Shown piece after piece: positions 11,874 through 14,935 of a stretch of DNA of 64,000 nt. The notes beneath the pieces are model-generated. The model ran no database searches and was not told the DNA's origin. It saw nothing but the letters and a program-made list of their open reading frames with translations. A program made the position numbers and the translations under genes. Origin of the DNA: Hutsoniella sourekii ATCC 700629 (GTDB lineage Bacteria > Bacillota > Bacilli > Lactobacillales > Aerococcaceae); NCBI RefSeq assembly GCF_000518205.1, contig NZ_JADD01000003.1:62001-126000 (forward strand). Direction: 5' to 3'. How positions within the stretch are numbered: position 1 is the first letter of the stretch; the number at the start of each line of letters is the position of its first letter.

Positions 11874-11946
11874 TAATTGGATCTTTTGATATACTAGGTT
11901 AGATGTCACTAAAAGTGTGACTAGACTAATAGAAACGAGTGAGAGA

Positions 11947-14064
11947 ATGCCAAGATATAAAATCAAAAAAAATAAAAATCAATCGCATATCCCTAAACGA
12001 TTAAACTTGCTATTTTTTGTTGCCTTCTTGCTGTTTGGCGCTCTTTTTGTTCGTTTAGGATATCTCCAATTATATAACGGGGCTGCTTTTTCTAAGATGG
12101 TGGAAAGAACGGAATCGACCGTGTCGACCGGCTCTGTACCTAGAGGAATGATCTATGACAGTAAAGGGCGGATCATGGTAGGTAATCAGCCGGAATTGGC
12201 GATTCTATTTACCCGGGACCGGGATTCTCAAGTCTCTTCTCAAGATCTAATTAAGACAGCTACAGAGTTGGCTTCCTTGATTGAAGTGCCTATCTCTCAA
12301 TTAACTGAACGGGAGATGAAAGATTACTTTTTAGTGAAGAATGAGGATCTAGTGAATAGCCGACTTAGTAAAGACGAAAAGCAACTACCTGGACCGGAAC
12401 TCTATCAAGTTCAATTGGATCATATTTATTCTCAAGATTTAAACTTTTCAGATGCTGAGAAAAAGATTATTGTCTTGTTTAACCGGATGAATGGTGCCTA
12501 TGCCTTGTCAACGGTTACGGTTAAGAACCAGAACGTAACTCAAGAGGAAGTGGCTAGGGTGAGTGAACAGCTGGGGAATTTACCAGGGATCACAATTGGT
12601 ACTGACTGGCAACGAACTTACCCTGAAGGACAAATGTTACGATCCATATTTGGTCAGGTTTCTTCCGAACAGCTCGGCTTACCTAGTGAACAAGCCAAGA
12701 CCTACTTAGGGCGTGGTTATGCTATGAATGATCGGGTCGGAATTTCTTATCTAGAGCAAGAATATGAGGATGCTTTGAGAGGAACTAAGGCTGAATACAA
12801 TATTGTTACCAATTCTGCTGATGATATCTTATCAAATGAAGTTATTTATGAGGGGCGCAAGGGTGACAATTTGGTCATGACTATTGACCGCGATTTTCAA
12901 AAGAAGATTGAGGAAATAGCTGAAGATGAGTTAAAAAACATGACCAACCGTGGCCTCAATGACCGAGTCTACATCACGGCTATTAATCCTAAAAATGGGG
13001 ATGTATTAGGTGTAGCTGGTAAACGATTTGAATACGATGAAAAAACCGACTCCTATAATTATGACAAAATCGTTGATGATGCCTTAGGTGCAATTAATAC
13101 AAGTTATGGTATGGGATCTTCAGTGAAGCCCGCCATGGTTTCCATGGGCTACCAAGAAGGTGTGATTAGCTTAGATAATAATCGCATTATCGATGAGCCA
13201 TTGAAATTCCAAGCCTCTCAGGAGAAGTCCTCTGTATTCAACCGATCCGGACGGATGGAGATTGATGATATTGAAGCTTTACAAAAGTCTTCAAACATTT
13301 ATATGATCAAGCTAGCGATGCGTATTGGGGGACAAACCGAGTATGAACGTGATGGTGGCTTGACGATTAAAGCCTCAACGATCGATATTTTGAGAGGTCA
13401 CTTTGCTGAGTACGGACTAGGAACCAAGACAGGAATTGACCTTCCGAATGAATCGGAAGGATTCAGCCCAGATAGCGACCAGTTAGTTTCTGCCTTAGAC
13501 TTGTCCTATGGTCAGTTTGACCTTTACACGCCGCTTCAAATGGCGCAATATGTCTCAACTATTGCTAATGGGGGTATTCGTTACTCACCAAGACTAGTTA
13601 AACAAATTCGAGGTACTGATGCCAATGGTCACTTAGGGGATGTTCTAGAAGATATTGAACCGAAAGTGATGAACGTTATCCCGATTGATGCGGCAGCTAT
13701 GAAACGGATTCAAGATGGGATGTATCAAGTATCACATACCAATGACGGAACGGCCAGATACTATTTCCAAAATTATCCGCTCCATGTCGGATCTAAAACT
13801 GGTACGACCGAGGCCTTCTATGCTGGTCCAATCAAGTACGCTGCTAATCAACCGGTAACTAATGCGACTTATGTAGGGTATGCACCTTTTGAGAACCCTG
13901 AAATTGCGATTAGTGTTATTGTTCCTTACCTTGAAGAAGCGTCTTGGGGACGTGAATCAACCCGAATTGCTCACCGAGTGATGAATGCTTACTTTGGTTC
14001 TAAGAGTGATACGAAAGCTCAAATTGAATCTTATCTATCCACTTTCCAAGAACCCGCTTCGTAA
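11947..14064 (+). CDS. Class B penicillin-binding protein (PBP2/PBP2b type transpeptidase)
   Basis: A 705-residue bitopic protein with a basic cytoplasmic tail, one membrane helix (about 19-42) followed by LGYLQLYNG, the dimerisation domain with VPRGMIYDSKGR, and a C-terminal transpeptidase domain. Active-site motifs are S391-S-V-K394, SSN (in KSSNIYMIK) and KTGT (in VGSKTGTTEAF), so it should be active and bind beta-lactams. PBPs of this form act in elongation, cross-linking new peptidoglycan beside RodA. The ATG at 11947 gives the usual short tail; a GTG at 11917 is an alternative. The ribosome site is weak (GAGTGAGAG). Confidence 0.93.
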   Translation: MPRYKIKKNKNQSHIPKRLNLLFFVAFLLFGALFVRLGYLQLYNGAAFSKMVERTESTVSTGSVPRGMIYDSKGRIMVGNQPELAILFTRDRDSQVSSQDLIKTATELASLIEVPISQLTEREMKDYFLVKNEDLVNSRLSKDEKQLPGPELYQVQLDHIYSQDLNFSDAEKKIIVLFNRMNGAYALSTVTVKNQNVTQEEVARVSEQLGNLPGITIGTDWQRTYPEGQMLRSIFGQVSSEQLGLPSEQAKTYLGRGYAMNDRVGISYLEQEYEDALRGTKAEYNIVTNSADDILSNEVIYEGRKGDNLVMTIDRDFQKKIEEIAEDELKNMTNRGLNDRVYITAINPKNGDVLGVAGKRFEYDEKTDSYNYDKIVDDALGAINTSYGMGSSVKPAMVSMGYQEGVISLDNNRIIDEPLKFQASQEKSSVFNRSGRMEIDDIEALQKSSNIYMIKLAMRIGGQTEYERDGGLTIKASTIDILRGHFAEYGLGTKTGIDLPNESEGFSPDSDQLVSALDLSYGQFDLYTPLQMAQYVSTIANGGIRYSPRLVKQIRGTDANGHLGDVLEDIEPKVMNVIPIDAAAMKRIQDGMYQVSHTNDGTARYYFQNYPLHVGSKTGTTEAFYAGPIKYAANQPVTNATYVGYAPFENPEIAISVIVPYLEEASWGRESTRIAHRVMNAYFGSKSDTKAQIESYLSTFQEPAS

Positions 14065-14073
14065 TAAAAATAT

Positions 14074-14139
14074 AACTCCCAGCTTAGGAAACCGACAATC
14101 AATGATGACTGGATTGGATTGCTAAGCAGGGAGTTTTTA
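14074..14139 (+). terminator. Terminator of the PBP gene
   Basis: AACTCCC-A-GCTTAG (14074-14087) pairs with CTAAGC-A-GGGAGTT (14122-14135), leaving one A-A mismatch and a loop of 34 bases. The second arm runs into TTTTT. It ends the PBP transcript. Confidence 0.75.
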
Positions 14140-14194
14140 CTTTAAAAATTCTTATAACTTCCGACAGTTTTGAAGTGTTACAAATAATTTCCTA

Positions 14195-14287
14195 AAAAAG
14201 CCGCACATTTTGTTAGCAATCAGGGACGGGGCAAATCCCTTCAATGGGATCTGCCGTAGTCCACTAAAACAAAATGTACGACTTTTT
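14195..14287 (-). repeat. 93-bp compound inverted repeat; probable structured terminator or small repeat element
   Basis: Outer arms of 20 bases (14195-14214 and 14268-14287) enclose a second hairpin, in which GGAC pairs with GTCC and GCAAATCCC faces GGGATCTGC around the loop TTCAAT. The outer arms differ at two positions and the inner arms at one. All three are C-A mismatches in plus-strand RNA but G-U pairs in minus-strand RNA, so the minus transcript folds completely and ends in GGCUUUUUU. It lies just downstream of the minus-strand pair ending at 14333 and may be its terminator. A miniature repeat element is the alternative. Confidence 0.6.
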
Positions 14288-14332
14288 GATTTAATTATTA
14301 AGCTATGTATTTGATCTGTTTAAATAGATAAA

Positions 14333-14935
14333 TTAATAGTAATAATAGGCACCATTAGTAATAATAGAAGCTATGTCATGGATACTCATATCAGAGTTTA
14401 ATTCGTAGGTTCCAGTTTGAATAGCTGCATCGAGTCCCCATTCATCGATTAAGGCTTGGAATTCACTTGCAGAATTGATGAAGCCTTCAGCTTCTAATTG
14501 ACTAGCAATTTCTGAAGAGGTTTGTCCACTGACCACTTCAAAGCTACCATCAAGTTCAGGTTGAGCTTGGGCAGGTTCACCTGCGTTTTCCGGTGTTTCT
14601 TCAGTATTGCTCTCATCGTTAGGGTTAGCATTAGACGCTAGACTCGCCGTTGAACTTGATTGAGCGGTAGTTGAACTAGAAGATTGCTCACTTAAACTAC
14701 GTTTAGCTTCCTGATTAGCAGATTGTGCCTCTTGAAGAGAAGCATTCTCATCTTTAAGCGAGATAATTTCTTTTTCCTGGGAAGCTAATTGCGATTCGGC
14801 GTTAGAGTTAGAAACGAGTTGATTGACTTTTGTTCCCATCGGAGAGTTTCCTTGGGCAAAGATAGCAAATGCGCCAGTCAAAATTGCAGCAATTAGGAAG
14901 CCGATACCTAAGGAACGTAATGATTGTCTATTCAT
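14333..14935 (-). CDS. Membrane-anchored protein with MltG-like LysM-type N-terminal domain only
   Basis: A 200-residue protein with a membrane helix at about 8-29. A coiled-coil segment (about 45-80) and a Ser/Ala-rich linker (about 80-125) follow. The C-terminal module has FEVVSGQTSSEIASQLEAEGFINSASEFQALIDEWGL, which resembles the LysM-like domain preceding the catalytic part of MltG/YceG. The lytic transglycosylase domain itself is absent, so no cleavage activity is expected. It could bind peptidoglycan or partner with a full MltG elsewhere. It ends oddly in four tyrosines. AGGAAG precedes the ATG, and the previous gene ends 18 bases upstream. Confidence 0.7.
   Translation of the reverse strand: MNRQSLRSLGIGFLIAAILTGAFAIFAQGNSPMGTKVNQLVSNSNAESQLASQEKEIISLKDENASLQEAQSANQEAKRSLSEQSSSSTTAQSSSTASLASNANPNDESNTEETPENAGEPAQAQPELDGSFEVVSGQTSSEIASQLEAEGFINSASEFQALIDEWGLDAAIQTGTYELNSDMSIHDIASIITNGAYYYY

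Follow-up and report, generated by a model that had tools for sequence, protein, structure and literature searches.

Position and anatomy of the hairpin

The window, a 64,000-nucleotide stretch of Hutsoniella sourekii ATCC 700629 DNA, contains a 93-bp compound inverted repeat flanked by a convergent gene pair: a penicillin-binding protein (PBP) gene on the plus strand and a yceG-like gene on the minus strand. Both sequence and fold placed this repeat at 14195-14287, where a first-pass annotation had reported it. The features of the region, with the evidence for each in brackets, were as follows:

11917-14064, plus strand: convergent penicillin-binding protein gene with PBP_dimer and Transpeptidase domains (open reading frame, Pfam domains)
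14073-14138, plus strand: separate terminator-like hairpin of the PBP gene, T-tailed and compound (sequence, T-tail scan)
14195-14287, minus strand: compound hairpin, very probably a long intrinsic terminator of the yceG-like gene (fold, 3' T run, equivalent position in relatives)
14195-14214, minus strand: outer 3' arm, which carries the U tract and ends in GGCUUUUUU (sequence and fold)
14230-14255, minus strand: inner 10-bp hairpin, GGCAGAUCCC-AUUGAA-GGGAUUUGCC (RNA fold)
14268-14287, minus strand: outer 5' arm of the minus RNA, AAAAAGUCGUACAUUUUGUU (RNA fold)
14333-14935, minus strand: gene upstream of the hairpin, encoding a YceG-like (MltG/YceG-like) protein of 200 aa (open reading frame, Pfam)

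Between the stop codon of the yceG-like gene and the start of the hairpin lie 45 nt. Only the first 64 of the 275 positions of the Pfam YceG model were matched by the 200-aa protein, therefore most of the YceG domain appears to be absent. Relatives of the protein are encoded in Ruoffia, Eremococcus and other Aerococcaceae, a kinship that places the host genome in this family, and a short form was also observed in many relatives, with open frames of about 170-240 aa.

RNA folding of the minus strand gave a single long, imperfect stem with 38 pairs in total, which bore out the proposed architecture of 20-base outer arms and an inner hairpin. The outer arms were paired throughout, two U-G pairs included, and a bulged middle helix of eight pairs connected them to the inner 10-bp hairpin, in which one pair was G-U. 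This RNA terminates in GGCUUUUUU, a six-U tract. Its minimum free energy (MFE) was -50.1 kcal/mol compared to a mean of -20.9 for shuffled sequences (z -8.9). On the plus strand, the MFE was -35.9 kcal/mol compared to a shuffle mean of -19.2 (z -5.1), and the fold was followed by five T (TTTTT). Since none of the 200 shuffles was equally stable on either strand, the fold is far beyond chance on both. The three arm differences were confirmed to be all C-A on the plus transcript and all G-U on the minus transcript; the statement that the repeat pairs fully only as minus-strand RNA thus holds where the arms are concerned, although a strong hairpin also forms on the plus strand.

The plus-strand fold and its terminal TTTTT would also suit an element acting mainly as a two-way terminator common to both convergent genes. 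However, a separate hairpin with a T run, at 14073-14138, follows the PBP gene itself, and the plus fold is weaker than the minus fold by about 14 kcal/mol; we consider this explanation unlikely. Possibly, the hairpin is weakly active as a terminator on the plus strand too. In PMC1852404, bidirectional terminators flanked by A and T runs are described, as are long terminator stems in Neisseria that make room for uptake signals.

Hairpins at the equivalent position in relatives

We examined 31 loci 3' of the yceG-like gene, among which 28 gave a yceG match (the window's own included) and three gave none; L056, L057 and L058 were omitted because, judged by length, their contigs duplicate those of L028, L034 and L031, respectively. 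The convergent yceG/PBP order was found in 16 other loci, all of which (16/16) had a hairpin 3' of yceG. By scan, this was a plain T-tailed hairpin in 15 of the 16, spanning 20-50 nt and starting at most 65 nt from the stop codon, and the fold of the 16th (L045) presented a long stem with a TTCTTT tail. Only loose hairpins, with spans of 183-184, were detected in L029 and L031. The window hairpin, at 93 nt, exceeds every compact hairpin at the orthologous positions (20-50 nt).

No sequence likeness to the window hairpin was seen in the folds or the scan of the 16 convergent loci, and a DNA search against the relatives' hairpins at that place matched no more than short stretches. The intergenic sequence of the relatives at this place was also unlike that of the window, the genomes compared being all from outside the genus. 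T-tailed hairpins of unlike sequence thus occupy the same place, which suggests that the terminator position is kept while the hairpin sequence turns over. As the relatives carry plain terminator hairpins here, the regulatory RNA that had been proposed from the size and shape of the repeat is unsupported.

Size, shape and G-U pairs of terminator-like hairpins

The T-tail scan took in roughly intergenic sequence over about 454 kb of the host genome (464,000 bases scanned, which correspond to about 453.5 kb of distinct sequence because locus L063 and the window share about 10.5 kb). It returned 85 simple T-tailed hairpins, which may include a few doubles, and 17 distinct compound places, listed in 19 rows since two hairpins appeared on both strands. 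Thirteen of these 17 places span 100 nt or less, the window hairpin and the PBP hairpin included; of the other four, the one in L073 spans 140, and the three with spans of 163-197 appear to be loose pairings that arose by chance. Two compound hairpins were more stable than the window hairpin (-49.5 in the same scan), one in L073 near 480 (-71.8) and one in L061 near 4576 (-50.4). Long compound terminator-like hairpins therefore seem to be rather common in the host genome, with the window hairpin among the strongest. What the first-pass annotation said of an RNA fold from the minus strand, 3' of the MltG/YceG-like gene, is supported. Its view that size and two-storey structure exceed what a terminator needs is not, given 13 compact compound T-tailed hairpins, similar in size and shape, in about 454 kb.

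Long compound hairpins with a T tail are also found in the host genome at 53120 (minus strand) and 40922 (plus strand) of the window, in L061 and L073 at the positions given above, in L072 near 12251 and in L078 near 15299, and no common sequence was evident among them. In four relatives (100 kb each, 400 kb in all), the scan, run without a shuffled control, returned 79 simple hairpins and 15 compound rows representing 14 places, four of them spanning 100 nt or less. The host genome seems richer in long compound T-tailed hairpins than the four relatives sampled.

We then considered the arm differences, which had been taken to suggest selection for a minus-strand RNA fold. Stems of one-sided T-tailed hairpins were counted in sequence that was not limited to intergenic regions, with G-U and A-C scored alike. 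G-U exceeded A-C by 79 to 21 in 100 such hairpins of the host genome and by 76 to 15 in 92 of the four relatives. Two-sided hairpins had been dropped before the count (37 in the host genome and 39 in the relatives), and the window hairpin was among them because of the A run at its 5' side. A terminator would thus show G-U at all three differences on its transcript strand about half the time (0.79 cubed = 0.49). The pattern supports a minus transcript and nothing beyond a terminator, the G-U excess being general here. Overall, neither the one-strand G-U signature nor the two-storey hairpin should by itself signal a new RNA, since both are ordinary features of the terminator-like hairpins in this Aerococcaceae genome.

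Search for a small RNA

An independently transcribed small regulatory RNA of about 95 nt would require a minus-strand promoter of its own, at about 14322-14294, and would end at the same U tract. A promoter-like match, TAAACA-17-AATAAT, is present at 14322-14294 on the minus strand with the right spacing for a start at the hairpin, and the minus fold is very stable. This match is weak, however (9/12), and such matches occur at a frequency near chance expectation (26 in 6 kb vs 16.9 in shuffles). An Rfam search over 13900-14600 gave nothing near a gathering score. The best weak resemblance on the minus strand was to RNA-OUT (RF00240), which likewise forms one long imperfect hairpin, but the score of 19.2 bits (E 0.76) was far below the gathering score of 41, and the neighbours of the window hairpin are the PBP and yceG-like genes, with no adjoining transposase. 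In addition, no structural relative stood up in 59 other Aerococcaceae genomes. Taken together, these results make a stand-alone small RNA very unlikely.

A related explanation is a lineage-specific, dual-purpose 3' element, in which the terminator would also yield a stable small RNA derived from the yceG-like 3' end, for example via RNase III or from a putative promoter at about 14322-14294; we regard this as very improbable. If a small-RNA explanation were true, a cell-wall gene of the YceG-like family would have a 3'-derived regulator.

Search for a mobile repeat

The repeat had also been proposed to be a miniature transposable element, for which multiple genomic copies would speak. A DNA search of the whole host genome found the hairpin in a single copy, with no further ones at the DNA level. 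Searches of 40 related genomes at the DNA level gave short low-scoring stretches only, and no relative of the hairpin was found in plasmid and phage sequences. With one genomic copy and no plasmid or phage relative, a dispersed repeat is not supported. Apart from the A/T ends of the arms, nothing resembling a target duplication was visible at the hairpin. Arm-like DNA matches on contigs 3 and 18 of the host genome had no such hairpin and were taken as chance.

Miniature inverted-repeat transposable elements (MITEs) and dispersed hairpin repeats include BOX and RUP in pneumococcus. The window hairpin shares with them a small size, an intergenic position and long terminal inverted repeats, but it is single-copy, with no family members in its genome. 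It could be a MITE-like element of which one copy is left, with terminal repeats that incidentally act as a terminator. In favour of this, nested hairpins are dispersed in the genome of another member of the Aerococcaceae, G011. A structure model built from the window hairpin alone (R1, one sequence) was searched against 59 other genomes of the family (60 genomes searched) and gave a good match in one place, in G011 (E 1.3e-4), with a further match in G073 (E 0.35). The matched place in G011 is a member of a genuine family of hairpins dispersed in that genome.

We rejected the membership of the window hairpin in this family that R1 had suggested. A second structure model, R2, built from seven G011 copies, scored the window hairpin at 34.9 bits (E 4.0e-4 genome-wide), yet it ranked a plain 48-nt terminator-like hairpin of the host genome higher, at 37.5 bits. 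A sequence-only HMM of 10 G011 half-copies gave no match at the window hairpin in 464,000 bases, with E values up to 50, and the arm and GTGGAACCGTC core sequence of the family were thus not found there. An exact match of the window hairpin to a G011-like pattern was set aside as circular, because the pattern had been derived from both sequences. Judged from these scores and sequences, the resemblance to G011 looks like that of a generic hairpin with A/T flanks, and a MITE origin of the hairpin has very little probability.

Proposed function of the hairpin

We propose that 14195-14287 very probably acts as a long compound Rho-independent terminator for the yceG-like gene on the minus strand, a function deduced from anatomy and position. 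A stable hairpin is directly followed by a U tract a short distance (45 nt) past the stop codon of a gene on the same strand, an A run lies on the opposite side, and a terminator-like hairpin occupies the same place in the relatives. It differs from the usual Rho-independent terminator in its length of 93 nt, its stem of about 38 pairs and its inner second hairpin. Most likely, it is an ordinary, if unusually long, intrinsic terminator, and neither a new regulatory RNA nor a mobile repeat. A literature search on repeats and terminators in Aerococcaceae returned nothing relevant.

RNA polymerase exiting the yceG-like gene would transcribe the inverted repeat, and the 38-pair hairpin would form at the six-U tract and end transcription. 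The outer and inner storeys would be the base and the top of a single long imperfect stem. With its A-rich left end and a T run on the opposite strand, the repeat may also provide a weak back-up stop for plus transcripts that pass the PBP terminator. More speculatively, the extra stem length could shield the 3' end or make the RNA a target for RNase III.

A dispersed hairpin family in G011

The hairpins of G011 (3.2 Mb) form a dispersed, diverged nested-hairpin family (G011:C1; loci L134-L147, L153 and L161-L171), with arms near TCCGRACNTTTAATTATAGTG, a core of GTGGAACCGTC ... CGTTCTTAACAC, variable inner hairpins and often a T tail. The stem covaries: among seven copies, seven of the 26 pairs change on both sides, a value reached by none of 500 shuffles, and slid controls were far lower. 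R2 matched 36 places in G011, some of which may be plain terminators. A search of 13 family loci against Rfam at gathering score found no family, and the exact core TATAGTGGAACCGTC was absent from all others of the 60 Aerococcaceae genomes. A second dispersed motif of G011, approximately TTTAAATAAATATCACTGCTTC, immediately precedes many of the family hairpins (L145, L149-L153 and others). This motif was also observed before a plain terminator or alone, and as an inverted pair in L152.
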